This document shows, one piece after another, positions 1 through 37,340 of a stretch of 64,000 nt of DNA; position 1 is the first letter of the stretch, and each line of letters begins with the position of its first letter. The position numbers and the translations under genes were made by a program. The notes under the pieces were generated by a model that saw only the letters and a program-made list of their open reading frames with translations, was not told where the DNA came from and did no database searches. Source of the DNA: Antedon bifida (taxonomy: Eukaryota > Echinodermata > Crinoidea > Comatulida > Antedonidae); assembly GCA_963402885.1 (NCBI GenBank), contig OY727100.1:14849395-14913394 (forward strand), in the 5' to 3' direction.

Positions 1-703
1 TTCACATTTGAATGCTTTTTTATCAAATCCCCTTCCAACATTTGATGTGTCTGTATTGTACAATGGATCATTTTTACACCAGATCTATAACTGTTTTAAA
101 ACATTTCAAAAACCAGAAAAGGCACTTGAATTTGTAGATAACAGCAATGCTCTAGGGGATGAGTTTCATGTATTGTCTTTTATGTATTCTACTGTGATGG
201 AGCATTCTAAATCTCCAAAAGGTGCTCCCAAAGGATCCACAGATTCTAAGGAAGAAACTAAAGGTGCTAGCAAACAAAAGGGAGGTAAAGTTGATGAACT
301 AAAAAAAGTAGCTGGAGGTGGTAAGAAAGAAACCAGTGGCAACAGACAAACAGATGGAGGCATAAAAAAGCCTGAAGGTGCTCAGAAAAAACATGAAAAC
401 ATTGGCTCTCAAACTAATAGACGAGAAAGAAACAAAGATGGCGGAAGGGGATCATGGGGTGGTGGAAGAACTTCACAAAGTAGTGAAAAGGGTGATACAG
501 TAGGTGGTGAAAGAGGTGGAAGCAGTGCCAAAGGTGGTGAAAAGGATGCCAGTAGATGTGGTGGAAGGGGTGCAAGTGGAGGTAGTGGAAGGGGTGCCAA
601 AGGAGGTGGTGGAAGCAGTGCCAAAGACGGTGAAAGGGATGCCAGTAGAGGTGGTGGAAGGGTTATACGGCCCAGAATTCGCACGACCATGATAATTTCG
701 TAA
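1..703 (+). pseudogene. Truncated copy of the ASTE1-like gene (3' part)
   Basis: Positions 1-661 repeat positions 29573-30233 of the intact ASTE1-like gene almost base for base; I found two substitutions (near 119 and 150). The open frame continues the same protein (FDVSVLYNGSF, then the KGAPKGS tail and the first Gly/Arg repeats). At about 662 the match stops inside a GGTGGTGGAAGGG repeat unit; a dozen unrelated residues follow, then a stop at 701-703. The nuclease core would lie left of the window, so it is not known whether a whole gene once stood here. The ATG at 8 is an internal methionine-like codon context, not a real start. This is either a very recent duplication with a breakpoint in the repeat, or an assembly duplicate. 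Confidence 0.85.
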
Positions 704-11375: not shown

Positions 11376-11397
11376 CGAACGAACGAACGAACGAACT
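11376..11397 (+). repeat. (GAAC)n LINE 3' end
   Basis: About five GAAC units marking the 3' terminus of the LINE. Confidence 0.85.
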
Positions 11398-16700: not shown

Positions 16701-19700
16701 ACCCCTGAGGCACTCCACATTGGATGTGTGTATAATCAGACAATGTATTATTTACATTTGTGAATTGCTTTCGCTCAGACAGATAGCTCTCGAACCATTT
16801 TAAAACATATTTACTTAAAGATGTATTGTCCCCCAAAAACATGAAAAATGAAGATTAATTAAATCAGACTTTGAATATGTTATTTTGTAGTTTTAATAAG
16901 TTAATCACTTCCATAGAAAAAAAACGAACAAAAATAATGTTTTCACTTGTAAAATGATAAAATAAATGGTTAAATTCAACCAAAAATCCATTGGCTGGCA
17001 GCCAATTTGACCATTTTTTGCTTTAAATTAAATTTTTTCAGGTAAAGACATTTTTTTTTCGATCAAAGTAGTTAACTATTATGTTACATTAAAATGGAAT
17101 ATTAAAAAAAAAATTTTTTAAGAATTATTTTTTCAGGGGGACAATACATCTTTAAACCATAAAGTCTCAATTTACTTAATAGTATGTTATGGTTTACCGT
17201 ATCAAAGGCCTTTTTAAAATCTAGTAAACAGATTCCGACCAGCTTACCCTCGTCTATTGCACTATACCAGTCTTCCGTCACTTTTGTAAGTGCAGTAGAT
17301 GTTGAGTATGATGGTCGAAAACCTGATTGATTTATACATAACAGATTATTATTATTCAAAAAAGCATAAAGTTGATTAAAAACGACTCGTTCAATTATTT
17401 TTGAAAGTATAGGTAGGACGGAAATGGGACGATAATTATTAGGGTAAGTTTTTTCACCATTCTTAAAAATAGGCGTGACCTTTGCTATTTTCCACGTATT
17501 TGGGAATTTACATGTTGTGAAGGAGTGATTTATGATTCTTGTAATTGTTGGGGATATAATCGGAGCAGACAGTTTTAGAATGCCCGGTGGTAAGTTGTCA
17601 TGACCAGTGGCTTTGTTTTTTGAAAGATTACTTAAGTATTTATATACAAATTCACATGTGATGTGTTCGAATTCAAAATTTTTTTCCGTGAAAGCATCGA
17701 TTTCATCATAATTTATATCATTTATCGGCTCATGTATTTGTGATGCAAGATGTGAACCTATATTTGAGAAAAATGTATTAATTTCATTTGCGATGTCCTT
17801 AGCTTTATAGAGGACATCGCCATTATCATTGCAAATTGTTTGAATAGTTTGAGTTTTCTTTTTTGACGATATAATATATCTTATGGTATCCCATGTTTTT
17901 TTTACATCGTTTTTATTTTCTTTTATACTTTCTTGAATAAAATTAGCTTTACTTTTACGTATTAATTTATTGCACATATTTCTATACTTTCTGTACCTTT
18001 TCCAGAGTGATTCATTTTTAGAATGTTTACATTCTCTTTTGAGTTTATCTCTTTCTCTCATCTTTTCAATTACATCATCAGATAGCCAAGGAGCTGTTTT
18101 TTTACGTACCCTGTGTTTTTTCCAAGGAGCATGTTTATCTAAAATTTTGGTTAGTGTAGTTTCGAGAAGTTTGGCACTCTGACTTACGTCGCCACTGGCG
18201 GTAATACCATTCCAATTTACCATTAATAAATCGTTTAAAAAACTGTCTTCATTAAATTGTTTAAAGTTTCGTGTCATTTTATAATTATGATCCTGTTTAT
18301 TAATTTGATTTGTTTTATTGGAATCTTTATTATTTTTCGCCCCTTTCCCTATTATAGCGAATGGCATTGAGTGGTCACTTAAGCCGACGTGGATAACTCC
18401 AGACTTTAATATTTTAGAAACATTTGAGAAATACATAACATCTATTAATGTAGAGGAATGTTTTTCTATACGTGTTGGTTCTTCAATGATCTGTTTTAGA
18501 TTAAAATTTTCACTTAATTCAATTAGTTTCTTTGTGTAGCAATGTGGATTGTCAGACATAACGTCACAGTTTAAATCTCCCATCATCATAATATCTTTGT
18601 GTTCCAGTTCAATCTTTTGAAATATATTTTGTAAATATTCAAAAAGAACTGCTGTAGTATTTGGAGGTCTATACCACAATAGAACAATTAGATTTTTACA
18701 TTTATCACGTACTATTTCAATAGATAGGAGTTCGAGTTCATTACACATTAGATCATTCCTAATTTTGTGGTTGGTTTTTAGGTTTATATAGAGTGCTACA
18801 CCTCCACCTTTTTTAGTTTTACGTCTATCTAGTCTGTGTAATATATAATTTTCAACATGAAAATCTTCATCAATAAATGTATTATCTAGAAATGTTTCGC
18901 TTAAGCCAAAAACATTGAAATTGTTGTTATTTAGAATACGTTGCAATTCATCAAAATGTAAGTCTAGGCTACGTATATTTAAATGTGCAAATATAAAACC
19001 CTTTTGATTTAGTTCCTCAAATATATGAGGATCTTTTTTTACTATTTGGTTTATATCTGTTATTGTATTATTCCTATTATTTATTACATATGAGTGGTTA
19101 TCATTAATTAATACATCATCTATGGCCTGGGAACATTCAGTAGTATTGTTAGTCTCTTTTTCGGACTGTGACTTTAATGTACTTCTTAGACTCTTTGGTC
19201 AATTTTTTCGTTCGTAATAATAATGATCATAATTATGTACATTACCACAATATCTTGCTTTATGACCATATTGACCACATGATTTACATGTTAACTGTTT
19301 TTGATAGTAGCATTCGTAAGCTTGATGGTTGTTTAGTCCACATTTCCAGCATGGTTCATACATATAGGTTGACTCTTTGGAGCCATAACTAAACTGTTGG
19401 TAACTGCCATTTCTTGCTTGTTGATTATAATAACCATGTCTATTTCGTTTCCAGGGGCGTGTATTTTGATTTCTGTTTATTTGACATTCTTGAGCATGTT
19501 GCCTGGATGATGATTTCTCTGTATATTGAAAAAAAAAAAAAAATTGAAATTTGACTCGCTCATAACAAACAGGGAAATATATATGTTTTAAAACTACGGC
19601 TAACACTAATGGAATTAGTAGTTTCCAGTAGTTTTTAAAAAATTAATTTATGACAATGATATTACTAAGTATGCAAGTTAGCTTACCTTGTTTTATGGTC

Positions 19701-22700
19701 CCAATGTCTTCTCTATCAAAATAGTTGTCATGAGTGGTAGAATAATAGTCATTTTCTTGTTGATAAATTGAGATATCTGGTGTACTGGGAGGAAGGTTAG
19801 CACGGAAGGCAGGATCGTTGTACACATCTGGATTGTCTTTCACCCATGGTATATTCTGTGCAAGATACATAATATTAACAATTTAGTATAAAGTGAAAAA
19901 GGGCATTTCTCACGCCGCTCCTTTAGCCATATTCAAGAGAACAGAAGCAATAGGAAACAGTTACCATGCGGTAGCTTATAGTATAATACGGCTGAAAAAA
20001 ATAGTATTTGGAAACTCTGGACATGTGCACACCCCAAAGCATGTCTAGGAAAAGAGCGTCTATAAAAACATTTTCTGATAAATATTGAGATGCATGTAGG
20101 TGGTAGATTGTGAGATGAGCGGCGATATAGATATATACTGTAACACCACCACACTTATATATTGACAACATTCCGAAAAACATGTTTCTGTTGAGCTGTA
20201 ATTAGTAGCCCGTTTACATACCCTCGAACTACCTCCTTGCCATACTGGTGGTTTATATGTACCCATATTCTCTTGTATCAAAGTCTTTCTCTGCACATTA
20301 CCTGCTAAATTCTTCCTAGCTTCCTCCCTAGACAAGGCAAAACAAATTTAACTTCATGATATAATGGAGAAAAGGTTAGAAATATTCTACTTTGAGAAAC
20401 GCAATGTTACTAAAAACTGGGCAATATTAGGGAGCTTTTGATTTTCGGCAACCGTTACCTTAAAACCTTGGCTTTTTCATCTCCCTTTTGCATTTTCTTC
20501 AACCTCATACGCTCCCTCTGTGTCATATGTTTCAGCTCTTCTTGCTGTCTCTTCAGACTGGCATTTTGATCTTCAAGGTGGGTTTTTTCTCGTAACATCC
20601 TGGCTATCTCATCTGTGTCTGTTTTCTGACTGTGGACGTCATCTCTATGTTCCTTAAATGCTGCTATCTTGTTTTTCATTTTCTATATTGTAAATAATGA
20701 TGATGCATGGCAATATTAGTTTAACTATTCTATTTCTAATTTTAAATGGTATCTTACAAAATTGTCAACTTTTGTGATATACTACATGTTCAATTTGATT
20801 ACTTAATCAAACAAAAGGATTCTAATTTTGATGATAGTATAGTACTTTGCCCTAATCTTAATCAATAAATATTATACATATAGTTATACCCATGGAGAAT
20901 AAGTTAGTTCTCCATGATATACCATATCGTAAAGTGGTAAAATTGTTTATAGAGCATGTTGAGAATAACATTAGTAATCACCTCTATATGTCTTTCTACA
21001 AAATCTATTTTTGTTATTTCAGTTGCAGATGGTCTGTGGGAAGGATCTTTCTCGAATAGCCTAGAAAATAAAAAGCATCTTATTTGTCATGAACCAACTC
21101 AACCAGTCGTTGGATACGAGTCAACCAAGAAGAAGTAGAAATGTTTGGTTATTTAGCATGCACATATTCAGTACTAAGGATACTTTTGGTAAACAATTCT
21201 TTAAAATGGACTGCAGCACACTCTTACCTTTGTACAAGTTGCCGTAGATTCTGGTGATACATGTCTGGTAACTCAGGTTTATTCCCTCCAACTATCTTAT
21301 ACACAATTCCCATAAATGACTGGCCCTCAAATGCATGCTGCAATGCACATATTTCATACAGTATACATGCTACAGACCTAAATACCAAGTATAAATTCTA
21401 TTATCTGCACAACAGATTACAGTATATAATTATAGAGAGAGAGCGTTTGTATGTTACGGCACACATCACTATAATTTGATACCTCATGTGTGTATGGTAT
21501 CAAAATATATGTCATCTTGGGTCCAACATGGTGACCAAAATAATGGTGGCCAAAATAATGGTGTCTAAATGGCCCACCTGTGTTTTTATGTTTGTTCGTT
21601 GTAATAAACGTGTATGATTACCCAAAAAAAACTTGCTAAATTATTGTATAATCAGGTTAACACAATGCAGTTACCGCAGTAGAATAATTTTATTCTCCGA
21701 CAACACTGTAAAACTTTATGTGACAAAAAATGTGATGTGCCCATATATGGACATGATGATCATATCACTACTATATTTGGGCATATCCCACCATATTTGG
21801 GCACATCAAACTTTTTTGGTAAAAACAGTTTGATAGTGTAGACAGAGCTTCAGTTTCTTGCATTTTTTGTTTGCTTATTCTGGCAAAAGTATTGAAAACT
21901 TACCATAAATCTGACTTTGAGTTGTAGCCCTCATGATTCAGTACCTCTGGACTCATGTAATAGGGCGTTCCTATGAAGGTACTTGCATAGTCTGATGCCC
22001 CCATCAATACACGTGATATTCCAAAATCTCCAATCTTTATCATATTGTTTTTTAAAAATATATTTGAAGTTTTAAGATCTCTGTGAAGCACTTGTCTGAA
22101 ATGCGAAAACAAAATTTGTAAATTTTTTTACCGAGATGGCAGAATGGTAAAGATCATCCTGTCTGTGTCATTGGACAAAATAATTAGCTATTTGAATATT
22201 GAGTGCGATAAACCGTTTGAGGCTCACTCACTCCATGGTGGTAGAACAAGTCTTCTCGGATAAGGACTATAAATCGTAGGTCCAGTGTACACATCTAGCT
22301 CATGTGCACTTTAAAGAACCTAGTACATCTTTCGAGAGGAGTAGGGGGTTACCCCGGTACACTAGTTGACACACAGCCACTCTAACATGGACAGATGAGA
22401 GAGCGCCTTAAAGTGGCTGCACTGACATGAAAGTAGTTGAAAAGTGTAAGACCACAACATAACAGTGCCATGAGCAATGATCCATTTGTTGGAATTCGGA
22501 GCTATACAAGAACTTGTATGTTAAGTCGCTGGTCCCAGGTGATTGCATAAAGTATGTAGCAGATGAATAATTCAGTATAATGTTAAAAGAAGAATGTATC
22601 TATGCCATGGTGATCTATTGAATGCAAACTTACCGTCTATGCATGTGTTGTACAGCTAGGACTAATTGTACAAACCAGTCCATGACAACACCTTGGTCAA

Positions 22701-23824
22701 ACCGCTTGCCGGCCTTTTTCCAAGCAGTAATCTTATCACTTAAGTCTCCACCCTGTGAAATAACCAAATCAAAAATTTCATCAGGGTCAAAAATTTGACT
22801 CAAAATGCCTCAACTGTGGGATTATGTATTTACTATTATTACTAAAAATTGTCAGTGAGTTTTTAAAAAACTTTATGAACAGAATATCTCAAGGTTATTG
22901 AAACATGCATGCATATAAAAGACAATGCTGTGATCTGTCAATGATGTTAAGCTCTGTCTACACTACCAAACTAGTTCAAACAAGTGTAATGTGCCCAAAT
23001 ATGGTAGTGATATGATGTCATAATGTCCATATATGGGCACATCACATTTTTTTGTCACATAAAGTTTGATAGTGTGGACAGAGCTTTAATTAACAAATTT
23101 ATGTCAGTTGTTACTTAGCAACCTACCTCACAATACTCTGTAATTATGCAAAAAAATTCACCATCAAGAAAGCTATCATAATATCTAACAATATTAGGGT
23201 GCTGTAGTCTTGATAGGAGCTTAGCTTCATGCATCGCACCCACTGTTTCATCTGGGGCTAGCTCACCACAGGGAATCTCCTTCAGTACTTTCCTAAAAAA
23301 AGCAAAGCAATCAACTAGTAACATTGTATTTATTAATGAAACTTTTTCCTCTAAGTATAATTTATTCATTATTTGTTTTTTTATTTGGTTGCACGAAGCA
23401 TTTACAAATTGTAATAGGTATCTATATTGATTTTCGATAAGAAAATCTATAAATTGATGATGCCACAAAAGCGAGCCGTCTGTCTTGTCACTGTCTGCAT
23501 TTTGTCGGGTATTTTTCTCAGTTTTGATTTTCTGTATGGTTGTTCCATTGTTCCAATTAAGCAGACTTTAAAAACAGATGTGTTTTTTTTTTAATTAACT
23601 TGTTGAGTTGTGAAATATTGTTAGATCTTGGTGTGTACTTCTTTACATGTCAGAACTCACCATTCTTCATCACCTCTGGTTTTGTTTGCTCTCATATCAT
23701 AAACAAGGAACGCAGTCCCAAAGCTTCCACTTCCCAGCTTCTTTTCTACCCTGTACCGGTTTGCTAAGACTCGGTGGTCACTCTTGTCCTCTTTGGGTTT
23801 TTTCACTCCCCTTGTGGGTGGCAT
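13767..23824 (-). CDS. NEK11: NIMA-related kinase 11 (NEK11), complete, 13 coding exons
   Basis: Exons (5' to 3'): 23824-23661, 23292-23127, 22752-22634, 22095-21904, 21377-21228, 21060-20982, 20682-20459, 20327-20222, 19855-19687, 15069-14801, 14570-14513, 14390-14309, 13968-13767; 1980 nt, 659 aa (human 645 aa). Kinase domain: LGSGSFGTAFLV (30-41), Lys59 in KVLKEI, helix-C Glu77, LHRDLKTSN (Asp156), GDFGIS (Asp173), YYMSPE; the sequence follows NEK11, not other NEKs. After it come the NEK11 coiled-coil (MTQRERMRLKKMQ), the acidic stretch in exon 10 and the conserved C-terminal SDCFLVDQLLFLEEQ. NEK11 is a serine/threonine kinase of the S/G2-M DNA-damage checkpoint acting on CDC25A. The exon 12 donor (cact/gtat) is weak. 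The large intron 9 carries a LINE. The gene is head-to-head with ASTE1, as in humans. Confidence 0.93.
14582..14690 (-). repeat. Short interspersed repeat (LINE-tail type)
   Basis: AATAATAATAGTTCATTCTT followed by ATATAGCGCATAT matches, in reverse, the 3' tail of the LINE fragment ending near 49235; another copy is at 58437. Lies in a NEK11 intron. Confidence 0.5.
15190..15412 (-). repeat. tRNA-derived SINE copy
   Basis: On the minus strand it reads CAAGGGTTTGAGACC (box B), then AAGTCTTCTCAGAAAAGGAC, GTCCAGTGTACACA, CTTTAAAGAACCTAG and GAGTAGGG, shared in order with the copies at 22130, 53600 and 56270. Sits in NEK11 intron 9. Confidence 0.7.
15817..18990 (-). pseudogene. LINE ORF2 (endonuclease-reverse transcriptase), disrupted
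   Basis: Frame pieces 18990-17102 (endonuclease plus first half of the reverse transcriptase), 16842-16561 (fingers/palm to YADD), 16600-16133 and 16152-15817 (thumb and C terminus). The first break is a MITE insertion at a TTAA; removing the MITE and one TTAA makes the frame continue exactly (LYGL to SKYV). The other two are frameshifts. The C-terminal piece ends with the usual SLSYRGAIIWNSL motif. Confidence 0.88.
16819..17151. mobile_element. TTAA-flanked MITE, family 1, copy A
   Basis: 333 bp; ends AGATGTATTGTCCCCC and its reverse complement, flanked by TTAA at 16815-16818 and 17152-17155. Inverted relative to the copy at 43718. TTAA duplications suggest a piggyBac-type source. Confidence 0.92.
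19199..19510 (-). pseudogene. LINE ORF1 C-terminal fragment with two CCHC knuckles
   Basis: Open frame with an Arg/Asn/Gln-rich stretch followed by two perfect C-x2-C-x4-H-x4-C knuckles and the stop at 19199-19201. A poly-T tract and CAG at about 19515-19545 (minus strand sense) resemble a splice acceptor, so exonisation into NEK11 is conceivable, but exon 9 joins exon 10 in phase without it. The upstream part of ORF1 is missing (5' truncation). Confidence 0.7.
21700..21850. mobile_element. TA-flanked MITE family, copy 1
   Basis: Right end GATAGTGTAGACAGAGCTT intact, left end divergent (cactgtaaaac). Internal ATATTTGGGCACATC words as in the other copies. In NEK11 intron 4. Confidence 0.8.
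22130..22410 (+). repeat. tRNA-derived SINE copy
   Basis: Begins with an A-box-like GATGGCAGAATGGTAAAG and B-box-like CGTTTGAGGCTC, then AAGTCTTCTCGGATAAGGAC, CCAGTGTACACATCT, CATGTGCACTTTAAAGAACC and TCTTTCGAGAGGAGTAGGGG, all shared with the other copies. In NEK11 intron 3. Confidence 0.75.
22949..23086. mobile_element. TA-flanked MITE family, copy 2
   Basis: 138 bp with both ends: AAGCTCTGTCTACACTA and its inverse; right flank TA. In NEK11 intron 2. Confidence 0.9.
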
Positions 23825-24491
23825 GGTGGCACATCTATTATCTATGCCACTGCCTATTTGGTGATGATCTATAAGTTGGTAAAAAATAAAGATTAATGCT
23901 AATTATAGTTAGTGTGTAGAAATTAAATAACACAAACAAAAATGTTTTATCATGGTTTTATGTAAGCCTATATCTATCTAGTAGTAGTAGTAGAGTAGGC
24001 ATCAGATTCTTTAGACTTTGAAGTAACTTTTGTATATATTTTAAGGATAACAATAATTGTTATGGTTTGGCCTAATTATACTATAGATAGTTACGTTCAA
24101 ACAAGTTTTCTACCAGATTAGATATGCATCGTCTACTACCTAATCCAAAATGGAACAGACCATGCATGACAACAGACCCTCTCTATCAAGCATCCACAAT
24201 GTATCGGAGCCCATCCGCCACCCACTGTGTTCTCTTCCTCTTCTATTCCGATCCTTCCTATCCTATGCACGCCTCAAGATCTTGTCTTGTTGTCCTACCT
24301 AGCCTATCTATCTATCTATTCTAGGCCTATATAGTGGTCTAGCCTATCTAGACCTCCTTGGCTATATAAAAACATGCAAAGATACTTAGGCCTATATTAT
24401 TTTACAATCCACCAGAATACACAATTTTTAAATAACTATTCTATATATCTTTATTTTGCAAAATACACTCAATTCATATAATATCTACCAA
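23825..24491. other. NEK11 upstream region
   Basis: Expected site of the NEK11 promoter and 5' untranslated exons; the sequence around 23870 could be a splice acceptor for the coding first exon. CTAT repeats at about 24306-24320. No other gene seen. Confidence 0.5.
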
Positions 24492-24660
24492 ATAACTGCG
24501 GCGCTAGTTCCGTTTCGCACCTGTTTTTATTTCGACTTCCTTTTGACTCCAAGCTTGTTAAGTAACTTATTGTGGATACCACACCTTAAAATTGGGCCTC
24601 ATAAGTAGGCCTACTTTCATGAAGAAGAATCACATAAAAAGCAACAAATAAATCCTTTAA

Positions 24661-26669
24661 AGCCCCCTTCCCTACGTTTTTTAGATCTAATTTAAGATCA
24701 CAAACTATATTTAATGTAAAAATAATACTATATGGTCCTATTGCGATAACTTTTTTCGTCTTTAAACGGTTAAAAATGTGAAAAATAAGTCGATTCTAAT
24801 AATTATACCAATTATAGCGGCCCGCTATAAATCCCAAAATGCATTGCGCGCGGATTGATATTTTTGTTTTTCACCTGTAATTCGCCGACTTTTCGATCGA
24901 TCGTGAGGCCAAAACAAATGGAAGACTCCTAGCTTTTCCGCGAAAATACCGGGTTTTCCCCAATTTGTATCAACGGAGTCTGGCAAAAATAGAAAGACAA
25001 TTAATGCAGCAACTATACAACGTCAGGCTAGGTATATAGCTAGCGTACGATGTTCGTACGTTACCGATGTTTACCAGCTAGGCCTACAAAACTAAGCCTA
25101 GCTAGGCTAGGCCTAAGACCGTCCACGAGAGGTCGATCATCATATCATATCATGTCAATATACAAACAAAATGAGTAATAATTCGGATAAAAATGCGACT
25201 AAGGATAACATTTGTTGCGTTCAATGCGAACGTCAGAGGAAGTCCCCAAACTAATTACTAGGCCTATTATCAATTAATAATTGCTGCTATAAATATATTG
25301 AGCAAAACGTTGAATTGTATTATTTTTCAATAAATGCTAAGTAAGTCAGTAAAACAACAATTGAAAAAAATTCATTTTCATTTATCCACTAAACTGTACA
25401 ACAGTGTTGCTTAAACCACACTCCAGAAAAGAAAATATGAAAGAAATTTGCAGAAAGAAGCAATCAAACACTGTTATTTCAAAGTTCGGAACGTCCGTAA
25501 TTACTACGGAAATTCGGCAGGGTACTACGGAAATACTTAAATGATGGGGAATCCCCGGCAAAATGCAATGACTACGGACAAATCAACGACCCATATGACG
25601 GGGTTTTCCACGTACCTTCTCATGACGCACACAGTCAGAAATTCATTCCGAGCCTGTTCAGAAACATATCTAAAAAAAAAATTCTTCAATGCCTTCGCAT
25701 AATTCCTCTTGGGTACCGGTAGTGGTGTTTTACTAATATTTCAAGTTCATTTTATTAGGTAAAATTTTACACGCAAAAACAAACGCACGCATTTCTATTA
25801 ACATTTATTTACCAGTGTTTCATTTACATCTTACAACATATTAATTCTTAATAATTATATACTTTCTTCAAAGTTTCTTCCGATAAAATAAATCGTATTC
25901 TTAACCACTTTATTCTTCCGTTTCTTATTCCTTCAAAGTTATATGTATTGTACCTCAACACATTAAAATTAATATATATCCCTACGTACTTCAATTCTTT
26001 TTATATTTATAGAAAAATGTACATGACGTTAATAATTCTTTACCAAAACATTTAATTATCACTTTAGTAAATCTTTGTTTCTTATATTATAAATCATTTC
26101 TATTGTACCCTGACACAAAAAATTAGTATCGCTTAGGCCTCATTCAATTCATTTCTTTTATTTGTAAAAACTATACATGTTAATTTTCACCGTATTGAAT
26201 TTTTTGTACTCTGAAGTATCGGTATCTACGTAATTCTTCGTTTCTTATCTCATCATGCCACCTAGCTACAAAATACGTGTTCGTATTTTATTTTCATTAT
26301 TAATTAATTAATTAATTAATTGCCAAGTTTGTCTGTGTCCGTGTTTTCCTGTGTAAAAACAAAAAACAAAAGTAAAACACAATGAAATCGATAATCCTGT
26401 ATTACATTGTCGTGTTTCATTGTTCCCCTATCAATGGCACTATGGGCGTTCCATAGATATGGTAGTATTATTGTCTGTGGCCGAAATTGTCTGTGGCCGA
26501 AGTTGGCCTAATCCGAGCTACTGGATTAGGTAGTGATTGTTTCTCACTTTTTATCATAATTTACCATAAAACGTACATTTAAGACAAGGAATGACATGGT
26601 TTAATGTTTTTAAAGTGATATATATGTATTATTTTCCAAAAAACGTCCAAAATTGCAGGTAAGGGGTCT
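24661..26669. mobile_element. TTAA-flanked 2-kb insertion nested in the fold-back element
   Basis: Interrupts the left arm exactly at a TTAA (24657-24660 and 26670-26673); the other arm keeps the uninterrupted sequence. Ends AGCCCCCTTCCCT and, inverted, AGACCCCTTACCT form a 13-bp imperfect terminal repeat. It carries no long ORF. Diverged direct repetition of about 150-175 bp seems present at 25960-26280, and an AATT microsatellite at 26300-26321. Confidence 0.82.
26300..26321. repeat. (AATT)n microsatellite
   Basis: About five perfect TAAT/AATT units. Confidence 0.9.
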
Positions 26670-27414
26670 TTAAATTGATGATTTTACAGACATGTTTCTC
26701 GCATACAGTTCGCGAATTTAGCATCCTCGAAGTTCACTATTTTCGTTTCTATGGAGCGCCAAAAGAGCAAATATAATAGATGGTTAAAAACTCAGTGAAA
26801 TGCGTCTTCTGTTAATGCATCGATTATTGAAATACACGTTTAATTTTAATATATTTTGTCAATAAAAATGCTGTAACATTTTACTGCTAATAATGTGCTG
26901 TTTTCAAATATCAACCGTCGACCCTAGGCCTAAATCGGCATCACTACCTAGCCTAGGCCTAAGACTAAGAGTGTAATTATGATGATGAATTTGTCGATTT
27001 TCATTCTTAAATATTAACGAAAACTGCGAAAACCATGTACAGTATCAACAGTAACATTTTTGTTGCATTGACATTGACAAAATATGTTAAAATTGAACGT
27101 AATTTTCACCAATAAATGCATTAAATATACGCATTATACCGAGTTTTTAACCCTCTATTATGATTGCTCTTTTGGCGCTCCATAGAAACAACAACATTGA
27201 ACATGGAGTATGCGAAATTCACGAACCGATGTGCGAGAAACACGTCTGTAAATTCATCAATTTAAAGGATTTATTTGTTACTTTTTGTGTGATCTCCTTC
27301 ATAAAAGTATTGTTGAGGCCTAATTTTAAGGTGTGGTACTCACGATAAAGTTACTTAACAAATTTTGAGTCGAAATAAGCGACAGGTGCGAAACGGAACT
27401 AGCGCCATAACTGC

Positions 27415-28007
27415 AGGCTAACTAGCTAGAAACAAACACAACAACAAGGACATAAAACTCGTTTTTTGTTTTTTAGAAACAAACTTACGAACGCCCTCTA
27501 CAGATAGCTGCTAAGACAAGACAATAGAGGGGGTATGCAAGAATTATTAATTAAATTAGTCAATTAGTTTCCGTACATTTTTTCGACTAGACCTAGGCCT
27601 GACTTACCTCTCTAGATTTGCCGGAAAATGAATATTTAGTACAGTACCACACAGTCTACTATTTAACATTTTGTCGGTAATTGCCTTCATACTGATTTTT
27701 ATAGTCTTGTTTGCCTTATAGTCAGTCGATCATTCAAAAGCGTGCATGAGTCAGTCAAGCATGCAAGCTTCAGGGACAGTCGTAGTCGTACGTGTGAAAA
27801 AAGCACGTGCCTGATTTGTCTGAAAATAGGCCCTGGTGGTTGCACAATAATTACAGGAACGCAATTTTAACATGTTTTGTTTTTAAAAATAACATATGCC
27901 ATACTTAGGTTTACTGACTGTAAACAAATTTATCTTTAAAAACAGAAATGGAATAGGCTATAGTATAAACTATAATACAGTATTGTTAGCATCCCACCAC
28001 AACCAAG
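27415..28007 (+). promoter_or_regulatory. ASTE1-like copy 1 upstream region (duplicated)
   Basis: From about 27533 this region is homologous to 32669-34121 upstream of copy 2 (TATGCAAGAATTA, TTAGTTTCCG, GAAAATGAATAT, and the 60 bp before the start codon). It contains a CACGTG E-box at 27804-27809 that is kept in copy 2. The start codon context is ACCAAGATGG. Promoter function is inferred from position and conservation only. Confidence 0.6.
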
Positions 28008-30653
28008 ATGGGGATCAAAGGTTTAACAACGTTTCTTGATGAGCATCGTTTTCTAACAGAAACCTGCAGTCTTCAAGATACCAAGTTAGTTATAGATGGC
28101 TACAGTTTGTTGTATCATCTGTATCTAAATGCTGAGCTGGATATGAAACATGGTGGAGAGAACCTCGTCTTTTACGGAGTATGCCAAACATTTGTGGCAA
28201 ACCTCGGAAAATGTGGAATTGAGCCGTTTATCCTTATGGATGGTGCCATAGATCCCGATGGAAAGAAGTTCAGTACCATGAAGGATAGGCATAAGGATCG
28301 TGTACGTATGGCTCTTTCACTCGCTGCAGGTGGTCATGGTGTTGTACTCCCGGTCTTTGCAATTGATGTCTTTCATCAAGCACTAACAGATAGTGGGGTA
28401 AACTATGCACAGTGTGATTTTGAAGCGGACAGTGAAATCTCTGCTTTAGCAAATGCTTTCCAATGTCCAGTTCTTTCGAATGACAGCGATTTCTATGTAA
28501 CAGACCTTATTGGTGGTTTTATCAACTTGAAAGGATTTAACTTTCATCAGCTACAGCACACTTCAAAATCAAAAAGCAGTTTTCTGACATGCAAAATTTT
28601 CCACGTTGATAGATTCTGTAAGCATTTTAAACTGAAGAAGAGTTTACTCCCCCTCTTTGGAACACTGCAAGGCAATGATTATGTTGATCATTTTGTAGGT
28701 ATGAAACTGAAAGGGTTGATACATTGGCTTGCTGCTTTTGACTCACCAGATGATGCTATAGAAGCTTCTTTAAAGCATGAACACCACCAGCATAGAGACA
28801 AGTTACAAAATAAAATTCAAACATCAATAGAAATGTACACTGTCAATTGTACATCAGAATATGCTACATACTTTGAAACCAAAGAAATAAACCAAGAAGA
28901 ATGCCTCCTGTGGCAGAATTATGATCTTCCACTCTGGTTCATTACAGAGTTCCGTAGTTGGTCACTTCCATCAGATTCACTTAATGCACAGCTGATGAAA
29001 AAATGCTTTCTGGCGAACTTTATTGAGAGCCCACATCACGCAAGTTCAAATAAAATTAGCTTGCCAATAAGGCAAATGATCTATGGTTTTATTCATCAGA
29101 GCGACTGCAGTGAGAACCCAACAATTGACGAGTACGACAGACAAGGTGGGGAAGTTAAGTGTAGACAGGTTTCTCCAAAATATTGTGCAATTAGTATTCA
29201 CAATATTCGAGAACTTGACAAAACACAGAGCAAGCAATTATTTATGGATTGTTTAATGTTAAATTCAGAAGATCTGCACAACATAAAAAGAGAATTCCAA
29301 GTGCCAATTGCTTCTATGTTGTACTGGATAAAACATGCAAAACCGGATGTAAGTTGGAGGCACATTCTTGCTTTGCTTCTTGGATTGGTAAAAAGCAGTG
29401 CCATAAAACAGTTACATGACCAGCAGTTCAAAAAAGGCTACGTAGAAGATAGTTGTAACTGGATACAAAATAGATTTAGAGAAACACGAGTGAAATTTAT
29501 TGAAAGAGAAGGGAATTTTGATGTGAATGTCAGTAATATATTTGCCCAATGGCAGAGTGTCTTGAAGTATATTTCACATTTGAATGCTTTTTTATCAAAT
29601 CCCCTTCCAACATTTGATGTGTCTGTATTGTACAATGGATCATTTTTACACCAGATCTATAACTGTTTTAAAACATTTCAAAAACCAGAGAAGGCACTTG
29701 AATTTGTAGATAACAGCAATGCTCTTGGGGATGAGTTTCATGTATTGTCTTTTATGTATTCTACTGTGATGGAGCATTCTAAATCTCCAAAAGGTGCTCC
29801 CAAAGGATCCACAGATTCTAAGGAAGAAACTAAAGGTGCTAGCAAACAAAAGGGAGGTAAAGTTGATGAACTAAAAAAAGTAGCTGGAGGTGGTAAGAAA
29901 GAAACCAGTGGCAACAGACAAACAGATGGAGGCATAAAAAAGCCTGAAGGTGCTCAGAAAAAACATGAAAACATTGGCTCTCAAACTAATAGACGAGAAA
30001 GAAACAAAGATGGCGGAAGGGGATCATGGGGTGGTGGAAGAACTTCACAAAGTAGTGAAAAGGGTGATACAGTAGGTGGTGAAAGAGGTGGAAGCAGTGC
30101 CAAAGGTGGTGAAAAGGATGCCAGTAGATGTGGTGGAAGGGGTGCAAGTGGAGGTAGTGGAAGGGGTGCCAAAGGAGGTGGTGGAAGCAGTGCCAAAGAC
30201 GGTGAAAGGGATGCCAGTAGAGGTGGTGGAAGGGGTGCCAGTGGAGGTAGTGGAAGAGGTGCCAATGGAGGTGGTGGAAGGGGTACCAAAGGTAGTGAAA
30301 AGGATGTCAGTAGAGGTGGTGGAAGGGGTGCCAGTAGAGGTGGTGGAAGGGGTGCCAAAGGTAGTGAAAAGGATGTTAGTAGAGGTGGTGGAAGATGTGC
30401 CAGTAGAGGTGGTGGAAGGGGTGCCAGTAGAGGTGGTGGAAGGGGTGCCAGTAGAGGTGGTGGAAGGGGTGCCAAAGGAGGTGGTGGAAAGGGTGCCAGT
30501 AGAGGTGGTGGAAAAGGTGGAGGTGGTGGAAAGGAATCTAATAGAGGCGGTGGAAGGGGTGCTAGTGGAACGAGTACTGGAAGTTCTGAATTCGAAGATA
30601 ATATAACAGAAATGTACCTTTACCTTAACCAACTTATGCAAGGACAAAAATGA
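28008..30653 (+). CDS. ASTE1: Asteroid homolog 1-like nuclease, copy 1
   Basis: 881 residues in one exon (human ASTE1 has several exons and 679 aa). N-terminal XPG/FEN1-type domain: MGIKGLTTFL, LVIDGYSL (Asp30), FILMDGA (Asp78), FEADSEI (Glu139, Asp141), LSNDSDF (Asp159, Asp161), so the metal-binding acids are present. The central part follows ASTE1 throughout (LLPLFGTLQGNDY, RQMIYGFI, FAQWQSVLKYISHLN). From about residue 605 a Lys/Gly-rich tail begins; residues about 690-865 are Gly/Arg repeats of the GASRGGGR type. ASTE1 trims DNA ends in shieldin-dependent break repair in human cells; nuclear action is inferred here. It has a tandem paralogue at 34.1 kb and lies head-to-head with NEK11. 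AATAAA at 31013-31018 is a possible poly(A) signal. Confidence 0.93.
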   Translation: MGIKGLTTFLDEHRFLTETCSLQDTKLVIDGYSLLYHLYLNAELDMKHGGENLVFYGVCQTFVANLGKCGIEPFILMDGAIDPDGKKFSTMKDRHKDRVRMALSLAAGGHGVVLPVFAIDVFHQALTDSGVNYAQCDFEADSEISALANAFQCPVLSNDSDFYVTDLIGGFINLKGFNFHQLQHTSKSKSSFLTCKIFHVDRFCKHFKLKKSLLPLFGTLQGNDYVDHFVGMKLKGLIHWLAAFDSPDDAIEASLKHEHHQHRDKLQNKIQTSIEMYTVNCTSEYATYFETKEINQEECLLWQNYDLPLWFITEFRSWSLPSDSLNAQLMKKCFLANFIESPHHASSNKISLPIRQMIYGFIHQSDCSENPTIDEYDRQGGEVKCRQVSPKYCAISIHNIRELDKTQSKQLFMDCLMLNSEDLHNIKREFQVPIASMLYWIKHAKPDVSWRHILALLLGLVKSSAIKQLHDQQFKKGYVEDSCNWIQNRFRETRVKFIEREGNFDVNVSNIFAQWQSVLKYISHLNAFLSNPLPTFDVSVLYNGSFLHQIYNCFKTFQKPEKALEFVDNSNALGDEFHVLSFMYSTVMEHSKSPKGAPKGSTDSKEETKGASKQKGGKVDELKKVAGGGKKETSGNRQTDGGIKKPEGAQKKHENIGSQTNRRERNKDGGRGSWGGGRTSQSSEKGDTVGGERGGSSAKGGEKDASRCGGRGASGGSGRGAKGGGGSSAKDGERDASRGGGRGASGGSGRGANGGGGRGTKGSEKDVSRGGGRGASRGGGRGAKGSEKDVSRGGGRCASRGGGRGASRGGGRGASRGGGRGAKGGGGKGASRGGGKGGGGGKESNRGGGRGASGTSTGSSEFEDNITEMYLYLNQLMQGQK
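30050..30575 (+). repeat. Coding Gly/Arg minisatellite (copy 1 tail)
   Basis: Tandem 15- to 30-bp units of the type AGAGGTGGTGGAAGGGGTGC encode Gly-Ala-Ser-Arg-Gly-Gly-Gly-Arg. The bias leaves three other frames open across the array, which are artefacts. Confidence 0.9.
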
Positions 30654-31271
30654 AGCTTTTGTTAAGTTGTATCATAACTGGTACTGTAACAGAATCAAGT
30701 TAGATGTTTGTTGCTGGTAACCTGTTTGGGTTGTGGTTGTTTTAATGAAAGAATATTTTAATTACAGAATGATTTTTTTAACTGTTAATAGTACGGTATT
30801 CATTCTATATTTACAGTACATTTACATTCAATTGATATTACAGTACTTGACACAGTACTATTACTGTTTATATAAGTTTATAGTATGATGAAGAAGAAAA
30901 ATGTGTATGCAAACTTTTTTTCTTGTACTGTATCGGAAAATTGAAATTGATAAGTAAATACATTGACAGAATTTACAGAATCTGTTTAGTTTAATAGGAT
31001 TATTATTTGATTAATAAATAAGATTACTGTATAGTCAATTTTTCGAACATCCCAACATGCTTTTAATAAAACATCAGATCATTTGCATGGATTTAGTTTA
31101 GGGTTTTTATTACAATTATGATAAACCTAATAAGGTATTCGGCCAGAAAGTCTTGTCAACAAAAGTACAGTACGATTATGGTTAAGTGTCATGTCTGTTG
31201 ACACAAATAAATTAATAAATGAAACAGTTTTTGGAAGAATATCTTCATTCAAAGGATTATTTTTTTTACAA

Positions 31272-31340
31272 AGATTCAAACTGCAGTATATGATGATGAC
31301 TATTTAATATTAAATCTTTGACAAACTTGAAACTATCATA
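31272..31340 (-). pseudogene. Relic of FANCA last coding exon
   Basis: Matches 38480-38541 inside FANCA exon 29 (GCAGTATATGATGATGACT, TTAAATCTTTGACAAACTTG) with substitutions and a 2-bp deletion that would shift the frame. It marks the right breakpoint of the tandem duplication. Confidence 0.85.
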
Positions 31341-33229
31341 TCATGAACAAGGAATGCATTCCCCAATACGATTTGTTTTGAGTCACATAAACGGGGACGC
31401 GCCACTCTTGATTACGAAAAATGATAAAAATGGCTGTTTTTCTGTTCTAGAAATTCTCATAAGTATCCAATAAAGTTATACAACCTACCAAAATGTTTGA
31501 TTTGATAACACCTATAAGATGTCACCAATTATAAGTGCAGTAAACGGGTTGAACCATCGGCAGACGGCAAAATATACACTGTTGTACTCAGCGTGAATTT
31601 CTGTTTTTTACATATTATTGGAGGCACTTTCTACTTCAACAGAGCAATGGCTCTGTACTTCAAAGATCTGTAGCGCCCTCAGAATAAAAGTAATCACGTT
31701 ATGCTGTAATATTAATTATCAATCGATTCGGAATACAATTTGCTGTCTATCTATATAAGAAAAAATTTGATTGGGCAAAATTTGTAACCGGCACAGCCCT
31801 TTTAATTATGTGGTCTGATCAGGAAAAGCCTTACAGGAGCTTTGGAAAAGCCTTTCTTTACCATAGCGCATTCCGTTTCGATTTCCCGCTTCTCTTGTTG
31901 GAGGTGTGTCTGTCCATTACTCCATGGTCTGTCACTGTCAGGTATTGTGTAAAATTGTATTTAAAAACATTATGTATTGTATATATAAGTTATATTAATG
32001 AACGTTGACATATTCATAATACTTCTCGTCCATCTATTAACTCAAATCAGTGTACTACATTATTGAATTCATGATTTTAAATTGTCCTTTCTGATGCTAG
32101 GCTTCAGTGTACGATACGACATTGTTCAAGGTACCAATCCATTTATACGTGGGGAAGTGACTCCACGATTAACATGCTGTGCAGAATACCATACCAAAGA
32201 ATTTAAAAATATGGTTACTGAATTCGACGATTTATTATTTATTATATATATTTAGGCTTAGCCTACTCCTATCCCCTATAGGCTCGATTTTGTATTATTA
32301 ATAACGTTGACAACCCTCGCTAAGAGTGGACGAATCCGAAACAGTTGGATGCATAAACACCGCTGCTGCGCGTCGAAGGCGATCGCGCACTGAAAAAGGT
32401 CTGAGGCACTATGAATTAATTTTACTGTTGTTCAAAACAAATCGTATTCATATGACGTCATAGTTACGTCATTCGGTAATTTAAATGTGTTAATTAGGAA
32501 GTTAATGTCGCATTTATGTCTACTCGTAATGCACTTAGGTGCTCTAAATCTACCGTTAAGGAGATATGATGGGGCTTTAAAATAGCAAATGGCGGCCATT
32601 TTGAATTTATGCTAATGCTATGTTGCAATATTTCTAGGTTCGACCATAATTTTACTGGACTAGTAGGCCTATGCAAGAATTAGTTTTTGATTAGTTTCCG
32701 CACATTTTTTTGTTTAACATTGAAACAAGGACTCGACTAGGCGTGACTTACTTACTCTCTATATTTGCCAGAAAATGAATATATTTAGTACTTCATAATG
32801 ATTTTTATAGTGTTGTTTGCCCTTTTTTTTTAATCAGTCAGTCGATCATTCAAGCCTGCATGAATCAGTCAGGCATGCAAGCCCTTCTTATTCAGTCGAA
32901 ATTCCGTCGTATGGAAAAAGCACGTGCCCGGTGATTTGTCTGCTGGATCATAATTGATGGACTACAAAATTGATAACACTGTATTTAATTATTGATTTAT
33001 TATTATTGGGCCTAGTCAGTCTTGGGTCTTGTTTAGAATCTAGTAAGTACTGTCTGTACTGCATCAGTACTACTGTATCTACAAGCTAAGTACATACAAT
33101 AACTGTATCTACACTGTGACAAACTAGGCGTTTAGAGAACATCTGTTACAACATTACAGGTAAATTATGAATAACAAGGCCATTACATGGCTGGTCCAGT
33201 TGCGTGCGCAAATTTGATTTAGTGTTTAC

Positions 33230-33519
33230 CGACCGACCGACATAGTGAGCTATAGAGTTGGCCCTGGGGGTTGCACTTTGGGCGGACGCAGGGCCGGTGT
33301 TGCCCCAAATGCCCGGGCAACACCCTTAATTTCATACTAAATGTTTTTTCTGCCACTAAATTAAAATTTAGATCACATTAATAACGATTAACGTTAATTG
33401 AGGCCTTAATATGTAAATTGACAAACTGCAGCATAAAATTAACCAGCAGTCAACAATACCGGTCAGTGTATTTTTAGTCGTGTGGACGCGACTCTATAGT
33501 TCACTATGTCGGTCGGTCG
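33230..33519. repeat. Inverted repeat, possible small transposon
   Basis: ACCGACCGACCGACATAGTG at 33230 and its inverse at 33500-33519; arms of 30 bp with one mismatch, about 230 bp apart. Present only upstream of copy 2, so inserted after the duplication. No target duplication recognised. Confidence 0.7.
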
Positions 33520-34121
33520 GTCTGTCGGTCCGGTATCACTATGCGTTTTATCGCTTTCTGACCTTATCTTGATATCGGTTTAATCTAGCTAAGTCAATTT
33601 TTCACAGTATATTCCTTATGGCCAGGAATCGATGTGGTTATGTTTTCATGGTGCGCAATAAAAAATTACGCGGTCTACGCACGATTTAACGAAATCACGT
33701 TTGTAATCATATCTTCACAACCATGAATCACAATTAAATAAAATAATTAATTAGAATAATTATGACATAATATGGCACATAATAGAGGGCGCTATATGAG
33801 CATGCAGAGAGATTAAATAATATGTGTAAACAGCGTTTACCAAACGAAATGTTGGAGCCCTCGGTTAGAGGTCTTTCAAGAACATGTTTTTTTCAATAGT
33901 TGAGAGATGATGATGATTTCTGCCTTAATTGGATAGGAAAAAAATAATAAATATAAAACCCCCTTAAAATATTCTTGCGACCGCCCCTTTCATGTTGTTT
34001 TTAAAAATAACATATGCTATATTTAGGTTTACTGACTGCGTAAACAAATTTATCTTTAAAAACAGAAATGGAATAGGCTATAATACACACTGTATTGTAT
34101 TGAAAGCATCCCACAGCCAAG

Positions 34122-37100
34122 ATGGGGATCAAAGGTTTAACAACGTTTCTTGATGAGCATCGTTTTCTAACAGAAACCTGCAGTCTTCAAGATACCAAGT
34201 TAGTTATAGATGGCTACAGTTTGTTGTATCATCTGTATCTAAATGCTGAGCTGGATATGAAACATGGTGGAGAGAACCTCGTCTTTTACGGCGTATGCCA
34301 AACATTTATGGCAAACCTCGGAAAATGTGGGATTGAGCCGTTTATCCTTATGGATGGTGCCTTAGATCCCGATGGAAAGAAGTTCAGTACCATGAAGGAC
34401 AGACATAAGGATCGTGTACGTATGGCTCTTTCACTCGCTGCAGGTGGTCAGGGTGTTGTACTCCCGGTCTTTGCAATTGATGTCTTTCGTCAAGCACTAA
34501 CAGATAGTGGGGTAAACTATGCACAGTGTGATTTTGAAGCAGACAGTGAAATCTCTGCTTTAGCAAATGCTTACCAATGTCCAGTTCTTTCGAATGACAG
34601 CGATTTCTATGTAACAGACCTTACTGGTGGTTTTATCAACTTGAAAGGATTTAACTTTCATCAGCTACAACACACCTCACAATTCAAAAGCAGTTTTCTG
34701 ACATGCAAAATCTTCCACGTTGATAGATTCTGTAAGCATTTTAAACTGAAGAAGAGTTTACTCCCCCTCTTTGGAACACTGCAAGGCAATGATTATATTG
34801 ATCATTTTGTAGGTATGAAACTGAAAGAGTTGATACATTGGCTTGCTGCTTTTGACTCACCAGATGATGCTATAGAAGCTTCTTTAAAGCTTGAACACCA
34901 CCAGCATACAGACAAGTTACAAAATAAAATACAAACATCAATGGAAATGTACACTGTAAATAGTACATCAGAATATGCTACATACTTTGAAACCCAAGAA
35001 ATAAATCAAGAAGAGTGCCTCCTGTGGCAGAATTATGATCTTCCACTCTGGTTCATTACAGAGTTCCGTAGTTGGTCACTTCCATCAGATTCACTTGATG
35101 CACAGCTGATGAAAAAATGCTTTCTGCCGAACTTTATTGAGAACTCACATCACGCAAGTTCAAATATAATTAGCTTGCCAATAAGACAAATGATCTATGG
35201 TTTTATTCATGAGAATGACTGCAGTGAAAACCCTACAATTGACGAGTACGACAGACAAGGTGGGGAAGTTAATTGTACACAGGTTTCTCCAAAATATTGT
35301 GCATTCAGCATTCACAATATTCGAGAACTTGACAAAACACAGAGCAAGCAATTGTTTATGGATTGTTTAATGTTAAATTCAGAAGATCTGCACAACATAA
35401 AAAGAGAATTCCAAGTCCCAATTGCTTCTATTTTGTACTGGATAAAACATGCAAAACCGGATGTAGGCTGGAGGCACATTCTTGCTTTGCTTCTTGGATT
35501 GGTAAAAAGCAGTGCCATAAAACAGTTACATGACCAGCAGTTCAAACAAGGCTACGGAGAAGATAGTAATAACTGGATACAAAATAGATTTAGTGAAACA
35601 CGAGTGAAATTTATGCAGAGAGAAGGGAATTTTGATTTGAACGCCAGCAACATGTTCGCCCAATGGCAGAGTGTCTTGAAGTATATTTCACATTTGAATG
35701 CTTTCTTATCAAATCCCTTTTCAACAAATGATGTGTCTGTATTGTACAATGGATCATTTTTACACCAGATCTATAACTGTCTTAAAACATTTCAAAACCC
35801 AGAAAAGGCACTTGAATTTGTAAATAACAGCAAGGTTCTTGAGGATGAGTTTCAATTATTGTCTTTTATGTATTACACTGTGGTGGAGCATTCTAATTCT
35901 GGATATGGCATTAACATAGATTCAAAAAATGCAGAAGAAACTGAATGTCTCGACAAACAAAAAGAAGGTGCTAGAGAAAACCTATGGGCTACAAGAAGAG
36001 TTAACAGTCAATTTAATAGCCTGCCAGGTGACTATGGCTCTCAAGCTAATAGATCCAGAATAAACAAAGATGGTATATGGGGATCAAGAAATACTGAAGA
36101 AGGGCATGAATCTATCAGAGAATCACCAAGAACAACACATAATATTGGTTATAAAAGACAGGATATGACACAGGAAGTAAACCTATGGGCTGCAAGAAGA
36201 GTTAACAGTCAATTTAGTAGCATGCAAGGTGACTATGGCTCTCAAGCTAATAGATCCAGAATAAACAAAGATGGTATATGGGGATCAAGTGCTAAAGAAG
36301 GAAATGAATCTATCAGAGAATCACCAAGAACAGCACATAATAATGGTAATAAAAGACAGGATATGACACAGGAAGTAAACCTATGGGCTGCAAGAAGAGT
36401 TAACAGTCAATCTAATAGCCTGCCCGGTGACTATGGCTCTCAAGCTAATAGATCCAGAATTAACAAAGATGGTATATGGGGATCAAGTGCTGAAGAAGGG
36501 CATGAATCTATCAGAGAATCACCAAGAACAACACACAATATTGGTAATAAAAGACAGGATATGACACAGAAAGTAAACACTTTAATAAACAGAGTGGTTG
36601 TTGTCCAGGAAATCAAAGTGGTGCCAAGGGTGGTGGTGGTGCAAAAGGGCACACATAGGGTTATGAACAAAGGTGGAGGTTCAGGGGTTGGTGGAAGAAC
36701 TTCACAAAATAGTGGAAAAGCTGACACAGGTGGTAGAGGAAGGATTGCTAGTGGAGGTCATGGAAGAGCCAGTGGAGGTGGAAGGGATACCAGTGGTGGT
36801 CATGGAAGGGGTGCAAGTAAAAGTGGTGAAAAGATAGCCAGTGGAGGTCACGGAAGAGGTTCCAATAGTGGTGGAAGGGGTGCCAGTGGAGGAGGAAAGG
36901 GTGCCAGTGGAGGGGGAAGGGGTGGAGGAATGGGTGCCAGTGGAGGGGGAAGGGGTGCCAGTGGAGGAGGAAGGGGTGGAGGAATGGGTGCCAGTGGAGG
37001 AGGAAGGGGTGGAGGTGGTGGTGGAAAGGGTGCCAGTGGTGTTGGAAGTGGTGGATGTGGAAGGGGTGGAGGTGGTGGAAAGGGTGCTAGTGGTGGTGGA

Positions 37101-37340
37101 AGGGGTGCAAGTGGTGGTGGAAGGGGTGCAAGTGGTGGTGGAAGGGGTAGAGGTGAAGGAAAGGGTGCCAGTGGAGGAGGTGGAAGGGGCGGGAGTGCCA
37201 GTAGAGGAGGTGGAAGGGGCGGGAGTGCCAGTAGAGGAGGTGGAAGGGGCGGAAGTGCCAGTAGAGGAGGTGGAAGGGGTGGGAGTGCCAGTAGAGGAGG
37301 TGGAAGGGGCAGGAGTGCCAGTAGAGGGCGAGGAAAATGA
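34122..37340 (+). CDS. Asteroid homolog 1-like nuclease, copy 2
   Basis: 1072 residues, single exon. Its first 600 residues are close to copy 1 (roughly 95 % over the first 270 by my count), with the same XPG/FEN1 acids: Asp30, Asp78, Glu139, Asp141, Asp159, Asp161. The tail differs: three tandem modules of about 66 residues (each with NLWA-RRVNSQ, GDYGSQANRSRINKDGIWGS, ESIRESPRT), then a short Val-rich stretch (36585-36650) that looks like a Gly repeat read out of frame, then Gly-rich repeats ending in five GGSASRGGGR-type units. No stops or other damage, so it is probably functional. FANCA lies tail-to-tail downstream; AATAAA at 37378-37383. It should act on DNA like copy 1 but with a different tail. 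Confidence 0.9.
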   Translation: MGIKGLTTFLDEHRFLTETCSLQDTKLVIDGYSLLYHLYLNAELDMKHGGENLVFYGVCQTFMANLGKCGIEPFILMDGALDPDGKKFSTMKDRHKDRVRMALSLAAGGQGVVLPVFAIDVFRQALTDSGVNYAQCDFEADSEISALANAYQCPVLSNDSDFYVTDLTGGFINLKGFNFHQLQHTSQFKSSFLTCKIFHVDRFCKHFKLKKSLLPLFGTLQGNDYIDHFVGMKLKELIHWLAAFDSPDDAIEASLKLEHHQHTDKLQNKIQTSMEMYTVNSTSEYATYFETQEINQEECLLWQNYDLPLWFITEFRSWSLPSDSLDAQLMKKCFLPNFIENSHHASSNIISLPIRQMIYGFIHENDCSENPTIDEYDRQGGEVNCTQVSPKYCAFSIHNIRELDKTQSKQLFMDCLMLNSEDLHNIKREFQVPIASILYWIKHAKPDVGWRHILALLLGLVKSSAIKQLHDQQFKQGYGEDSNNWIQNRFSETRVKFMQREGNFDLNASNMFAQWQSVLKYISHLNAFLSNPFSTNDVSVLYNGSFLHQIYNCLKTFQNPEKALEFVNNSKVLEDEFQLLSFMYYTVVEHSNSGYGINIDSKNAEETECLDKQKEGARENLWATRRVNSQFNSLPGDYGSQANRSRINKDGIWGSRNTEEGHESIRESPRTTHNIGYKRQDMTQEVNLWAARRVNSQFSSMQGDYGSQANRSRINKDGIWGSSAKEGNESIRESPRTAHNNGNKRQDMTQEVNLWAARRVNSQSNSLPGDYGSQANRSRINKDGIWGSSAEEGHESIRESPRTTHNIGNKRQDMTQKVNTLINRVVVVQEIKVVPRVVVVQKGTHRVMNKGGGSGVGGRTSQNSGKADTGGRGRIASGGHGRASGGGRDTSGGHGRGASKSGEKIASGGHGRGSNSGGRGASGGGKGASGGGRGGGMGASGGGRGASGGGRGGGMGASGGGRGGGGGGKGASGVGSGGCGRGGGGGKGASGGGRGASGGGRGASGGGRGRGEGKGASGGGGRGGSASRGGGRGGSASRGGGRGGSASRGGGRGGSASRGGGRGRSASRGRGK
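35974..36578 (+). repeat. Three tandem 198-204 bp coding repeats in copy 2
   Basis: Units start near 35974, 36179 and 36379, each with AACCTATGGGCT(A/G)CAAGA and a shared TCTCAAGCTAATAGATCCAG. They are in frame and absent from copy 1. Confidence 0.93.
36680..37337 (+). repeat. Coding Gly-rich minisatellite (copy 2 tail)
   Basis: Tandem GGTGGAAGGGGTGCCAGTGG-type units; the last 150 bp are five nearly identical 30-bp units (GGAGTGCCAGTAGAGGAGGT). Copy number is likely to vary between individuals. Confidence 0.9.

Follow-up and report, generated by a model that had tools for sequence, protein, structure and literature searches.

ASTE1 (asteroid homolog 1) is regarded as a DNA endonuclease of single strands and 3′ overhangs, and the primary paper on its cleavage is reportedly that of Zhao et al. 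2021. An excerpt of a review (PMC8785701) places ASTE1 downstream of shieldin, where it cleaves single strands that protrude, and in the excerpted text of PMC11574390 it appears only as a table entry. The excerpt of PMC12345631 groups ASTE1 with Mkt1 and FAM120 by predicted structural similarity within the Rad2/XPG family. This class contains a stress-granule protein as well as nucleases, and the excerpt mentions no RG-array tail for it. A glycine/arginine-rich (GAR) C-terminal domain is described for another DNA-end nuclease, MRE11 (excerpt of PMC8564520). Our literature search returned no paper combining asteroid homolog 1 with crinoids.

The ASTE1 locus and its nuclease cores

The window analyzed here is a stretch of 64,000 nucleotides from the crinoid Antedon bifida (G000:C13:14849395-14913394), taken from a 315.6-Mb assembly of 27 contigs. 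Two ASTE1-like genes lie on its forward strand, copy 1 (28008..30653, 881 aa) and copy 2 (34122..37340, 1072 aa), each a single ORF whose translation contains no internal stop. A search of the assembly with the copy 1 protein gave four matches, all at this locus: one each for copy 1 and copy 2, and the other two for parts of a third copy.

In the predicted structure of copy 2, the folded core comprises residues 1–594 (34122..35903, forward strand). The core end was set on this model alone, in which the pLDDT falls at residue 595, and the same limit was taken over for the XPG/FEN1-like core of copy 1 (residues 1–594; 28008..29789, forward strand). The acids D30, D78, E139, D141, D159, D161, and D224 are all kept in copy 1, copy 2, and P0001, the asteroid homolog 1-like isoform X2 of the comatulid crinoid Anneissia japonica, which is the best match to the core (62% identity). 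Six of the seven are invariant in a 32-sequence alignment, with D30 at least 90% conserved. The structure comparison of the copy 2 model, which shares 14–18% identity with EXO1 and FEN1, aligned six of the seven metal-binding acids with EXO1, and the comparison of this model with the PDB points to an XPG/FEN1 catalytic fold. XPG_N (PF00752) was detected at 23.7 and 25.1 bits in the two copies (cut-off 22), and XPG_I_2 (PF12813; residues 132–216) scored 19.0 and 21.7 bits, under the cut-off of 24.2. The homologue matches were mostly named asteroid or ASTE1 and otherwise bore generic or XPG-domain names (3 of 37 were nameless), and ASTE1 proteins of vertebrates, cnidarians, molluscs, and arachnids have the same core, catalytic acids, and fold family. 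The sequence evidence supports the assignment of both genes as intact ASTE1 paralogues in a crinoid, with a predicted nuclease activity. Two full-length ASTE1-like ORFs retaining all XPG/FEN1 metal-binding acids had been claimed in a preliminary description of this DNA; both ORFs are present and stop-free, the ASTE1 identity is backed by the homologue names, the core sequence, and the catalytic acids, and all seven acids were seen in both copies.

Over codons 1–588, the differences between copies 1 and 2 amount to 29.5 synonymous and 51.5 nonsynonymous (dN = 0.038, dS = 0.085). The resulting dN/dS between the cores, a check called for in the preliminary description, is 0.44, away from the value near 1 that it had set against its own proposal. 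Neutral simulations gave a mean ratio of 0.79, and 14 of 1000 were as low as the observed core. By core part, the ratio is 0.34 for residues 1–240, 0.32 for 241–420, and 0.63 for 421–588. A core ratio of 0.44 is higher than expected of a conserved nuclease. The core pair is under purifying but relaxed constraint. With Anneissia as the outgroup, 15 changes fell on copy 1 and 13 on copy 2, and 23 were not assignable.

The third copy, copy 0, begins at G000:C13:14847829, upstream of the window, and its 3′ part occupies positions 1..662 (forward strand), where it is 99.7% identical to 29573-30234 and ends abruptly within the RG array. In the part upstream of the window, one extra base is inserted where codon 288 lies, and the match stops at codon 744. 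The description of the locus as a tandem pair had overlooked this frame-broken copy ending at 662. Megablast blocks delimit a copy 1-bearing segment (11396..30234, unstranded) and a shorter, 10.6-kb duplicate holding copy 0 (G000:C13:14839447-14850056), with 101 mismatches over 10336 aligned bases (about 1.0%; blocks of at least 200 bases). Only the copy 1 block carries large insertions, including a reverse-transcriptase element; these could be allelic or post-duplication. The flanks of the copy 0 segment did not align beside the copy 1 block, and none of the seven sequences checked contained runs of N. The copy 0 segment may be either a recent duplication or a misplaced allele/retained haplotype.

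Composition of the C-terminal tails

Past residue 594, copy 1 extends for about 287 residues (96 Gly and 30 Arg) and copy 2 for about 478 residues (134 Gly and 55 Arg). The copy 1 tail opens with a Lys/Gly linker (29790..30014, forward strand). It continues into an RG array (30015..30569, forward strand; end placed by eye) of 24-nt units encoding GGGRGASR or G(G/S)EKD(A/V)SR, and closes with a non-RG C-terminal end (30570..30653, forward strand), whose DNA weakly resembles the sequence from the copy 2 stop onward. The copy 2 tail contains three tandem 66-residue modules (35978..36578, forward strand; 198-bp unit, 3.0 copies with 93% matches in TRF). These are followed by a stretch of ≈25 residues out of frame relative to the matching copy 1 repeats (36594..36668, forward strand) and by an RG array (36681..37337, forward strand) that ends with five 30-nt units of the GGGRGGSASR type. 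In the DNA alignment, the out-of-frame match to the copy 1 repeats covers 36616-36680; past the shifted stretch, copy 2 regains the RG frame, and both other frames hit stops between 36656 and 36835.

An RG/RGG (GAR) motif is defined by at least three RG separated by gaps of 0–4 residues. Two stretches of the copy 1 array (22 RG, 10 RGG, 26 Arg, net charge +23, 3 Tyr/Phe) and one long stretch of the copy 2 array (24 RG, 12 RGG, 29 Arg, net charge +33, 0 Tyr/Phe) have this spacing. The Gly/Arg-rich tails and the three 66-residue modules of the preliminary description were thus recovered, and the tails are predicted to be disordered and are rare among the homologues fetched. Their reported lengths of 270–470 residues were mended to the values given above. 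Weak matches of the tails to ribosomal eS10 and DUF5132 were taken as low-complexity noise.

Origin and turnover of the tails

Where the RG array begins, both copies share a non-repetitive 41-bp anchor with 36 of 41 positions identical. None of 2000 shuffles reached its score of 57, and the best other array window scored 25. Furthermore, 29975-30026 of copy 1 matches all three copy 2 modules in their central block (81–83% over 53 columns), and at the protein level 10 of 2000 shuffles reached the score between the module and the copy 1 linker. The 3′ ends of the genes are also alike, more weakly (5 of 2000 shuffles). The tail DNAs align mostly in the same reading frame, with a best E value of 9e-64 over the arrays that is inflated by repetitiveness. 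A search of the assembly with a 26-base array unit, allowing up to two mismatches, yielded seven matches, six in copy 1 and one in copy 2, and none with the reversed pattern as a control. The module array, searched as DNA in the 315.6-Mb assembly, was found in one place, copy 2, by a search that skips very common words. A dispersed repeat was not supported as the source of the array or module, as 7/7 array matches and the single module match (1/1) lie inside these genes.

Similar 24-nt window pairs within the arrays were all in register (1701:0:0 and 1220:0:0), and all 11 gaps in the MAFFT alignment of the arrays were multiples of three; units of 3n length could by themselves give such a pattern. 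Differences between the arrays of the two copies numbered 36, 44, and 50 at the three codon positions, of 159 each. Unit-to-unit differences are spread evenly over the codon positions in copy 1 (0.34/0.36/0.30), and the third position carries an excess in copy 2 (0.52). Differences among the three modules are few and mainly nonsynonymous, and the module pairs gave dN/dS-like ratios of 2.76, 0.53, and 0.70 on few changes. Selection on single tail residues is weak or undetectable.

The Anneissia protein P0001 bears a tail at the same position (273 residues, 41% Gly, 14% Arg, 17 RG), built of RGSGGGG-type units with no RGG and without a recognizable 66-residue module. Its linker resembles neither the copy 2 module nor the copy 1 linker above chance (1536 and 313 of 2000 shuffles reached the respective scores), and a by-eye impression of homology between the linker and the copy 2 module was dropped on the former count. 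As the linkers cannot be aligned across species, homology of the tails between species is argued from position and composition only. Among the 57 homologues fetched, only the Anneissia protein has more than five RG past residue 540, and the nameless P0046 has five. The statement that the RG tail is confined to crinoids is limited by the scope of this search, which comprised 57 proteins (13 nameless, and no other echinoderm named), with one search scoring the best 7994 candidates; two genomes represent the crinoids. In 43 of 48 other homologues, several of them partial records, the post-core part has 0–79 residues and 0–1 RG; bird ASTE1 tails are Lys-rich and 43–47 residues long. An N[RK][FY]xxL ending occurs in 17 of the 57 homologues and is absent from both Antedon copies and P0001. 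To our knowledge, EXO1 and FEN1 are without such an RG tail.

Given the shared anchor, the shared module block, and the RG-rich Anneissia tail, the simplest reading of the sequences is that one RG tail was gained, before the gene duplicated. This tail was probably gained in the crinoid line, before the split from Anneissia japonica, and is probably shared by crinoids in general. Since the module block is present once in copy 1, it was multiplied rather than invented in copy 2, and the module triplication alone looks specific to that copy. The preliminary description had each copy growing a different tail, gained twice; this claim was discarded on the anchor and the module block, the tails being homologous in DNA outside the repeats. 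Two independent gains after the duplication would accord with the differing units (24-nt in copy 1 versus 21- and 30-nt, among others, in copy 2) and with the low overall identity of the tails. However, they would leave the shared anchor, module block, and, more weakly, 3′ end, as well as the RG-rich tail of Anneissia, to be explained and would require the anchor to be a gene-conversion tract, and we consider them very improbable.

Possible roles of the tail

We propose a single origin of the RG-rich, disordered C-terminal tail, predating the divergence of the two copies. The tail would then have turned over by in-frame tandem duplication, of RG units in both copies and of the 198-bp module tripled in copy 2, with one out-of-frame stretch tolerated in the copy 2 tail. 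The tail might work in the manner of the MRE11 GAR domain and lend the enzyme a sequence-nonspecific affinity for ssDNA or RNA, and as a PRMT-methylatable surface it might hold or tune the nuclease at DNA ends. Composition and frame would matter, and length and exact sequence would matter little. By analogy, an ancestral RG tail with turnover and a GAR-like, nucleic-acid-binding, methylatable role has in our judgment about an even chance of being correct. FUS-like condensation is driven by aromatic residues; with three and zero Tyr/Phe in the arrays, condensation of this kind is not suggested by the sequence. The nuclease fold of MRE11 is unrelated to that of ASTE1. The GAR-like role is favored by the MRE11 precedent, the nearest known to us for an RG region on a DNA-end nuclease, together with the literature on ASTE1 function and its class; nine arginines are named for the MRE11 domain in the excerpt of PMC8564520, compared with 26 and 29 in the copy 1 and copy 2 arrays.

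The same tails could instead be tolerated, functionless extensions, in which G/A-rich 3n repeats grow by slippage within a disordered C-terminus and stay open since the units lack stops in the frame used. The ≈25 copy 2 residues read out of frame, the ≈190-residue difference in tail length, the modules without a signal of purifying selection, and the copy 1 units without a third-position excess are consistent with this explanation, as is the fact that, of the remaining two forward frames, one likewise stays open along most of each array. It is a real possibility that we rate short of even, as the RG-rich composition is common to Anneissia, the array unit occurs nowhere else in the assembly, the third-position excess is present in copy 2, and the RG frame is regained after the shift, where the other frames are stopped. 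That one copy is a decaying duplicate, its tail differences reflecting early pseudogene drift, might be read from the high core dN/dS, particularly in residues 421–588, and from the broken copy 0 adjoining it. Against such decay stand 881 and 1072 codons without a stop or frameshift, the seven acids kept in both copies, and the near-equal numbers of changes assigned to them (23 remaining unassigned), which make it improbable. A bolder extension of the GAR-like proposal is that crinoids swapped the short ASTE1 C-terminus, including N[RK][FY]xxL, for a fast-evolving RG nucleic-acid-binding tail that rewired recruitment to DNA ends, and that one paralogue then added three tandem module copies for a separate role; we regard it as rather unlikely.

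The feature is real, intact, somewhat unusual, and older than first thought; it varies on a type already known, and its function is putative. If functional, it would provide a natural case of a structure-specific repair nuclease whose MRE11-like RG domain evolves through repeat expansion, and the adjoining paralogues of unequal tail length would suit testing RG density versus sequence in recruitment to DNA ends. If neutral, it would be a clear case of a disordered tail drifting under limits of frame and composition only.

Duplicated ASTE1 copies and transposon genes

Synonymous divergence along the ASTE1 core was estimated by codon block between copy 1 (window 28008-29771) and copy 2 (window 34122-35885). 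The dS value for codons 1-240 (0.056) was lower than those for codons 241-420 (0.110) and 421-588 (0.107), and this lower divergence may reflect gene conversion between the copies.

The broken third ASTE1 copy, copy 0, extends into the window as its first 662 bases and belongs to a near-identical 10.6-kb block (G000:C13:14839447-14850056, on the contig scale). Its junction, at window 662/663, lies inside the arginine-glycine (RG) array; the 14-base word CGGCCYAGAATTCG occurs at window positions 668 and 847. The transposon genes comprise a DDE transposase (window 1798-3555, - strand) and two reverse transcriptases (window 7819-11136, + strand; window 17102-19198, - strand), the latter of which sits within an insertion that the copy 0 block is without.

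C-terminal tails and a short motif

Long tails were also observed in two other ASTE1-like proteins. P0046 (808 aa) has an Arg-, Gly-, and Ser-rich tail in which Tyr is also visible and which contains five RG and one RGG; in P0047 (891 aa) the tail abounds in Ser and basic residues. These low-complexity tails are possibly independent gains.

Near the C-terminus, N[RK][FY]xxL was found in 17 of the 57 fetched ASTE1 homologues (P0003, P0006, P0009-P0013, P0016, P0025, P0028-P0030, P0033, P0042, P0051, P0053, and P0056), whose carriers span birds, sea anemone, and arachnids. Judged from these sequences, it looks like a short conserved motif of the ASTE1 C-terminus. The scan of the 57 homologues did not detect it in the crinoid protein P0001 (Anneissia japonica), and it was also absent from copies 1 and 2 of the window.

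Genes neighboring ASTE1

A FANCA exon (window 41087-42235, - strand; PF24783, E 2e-31; PDB match, Fanconi anemia group A protein) places another repair gene close to the ASTE1 pair. Pieces of a NEK-like kinase gene (window 19575-23902, - strand) lie head to head with copy 1, and were duplicated along with copy 0. One exon was identified by PDB matches to NEK2 and NEK1, and the others by eye. Since human NEK11 and ASTE1 are head-to-head neighbors, the NEK-ASTE1 order in the window may represent ancient synteny.
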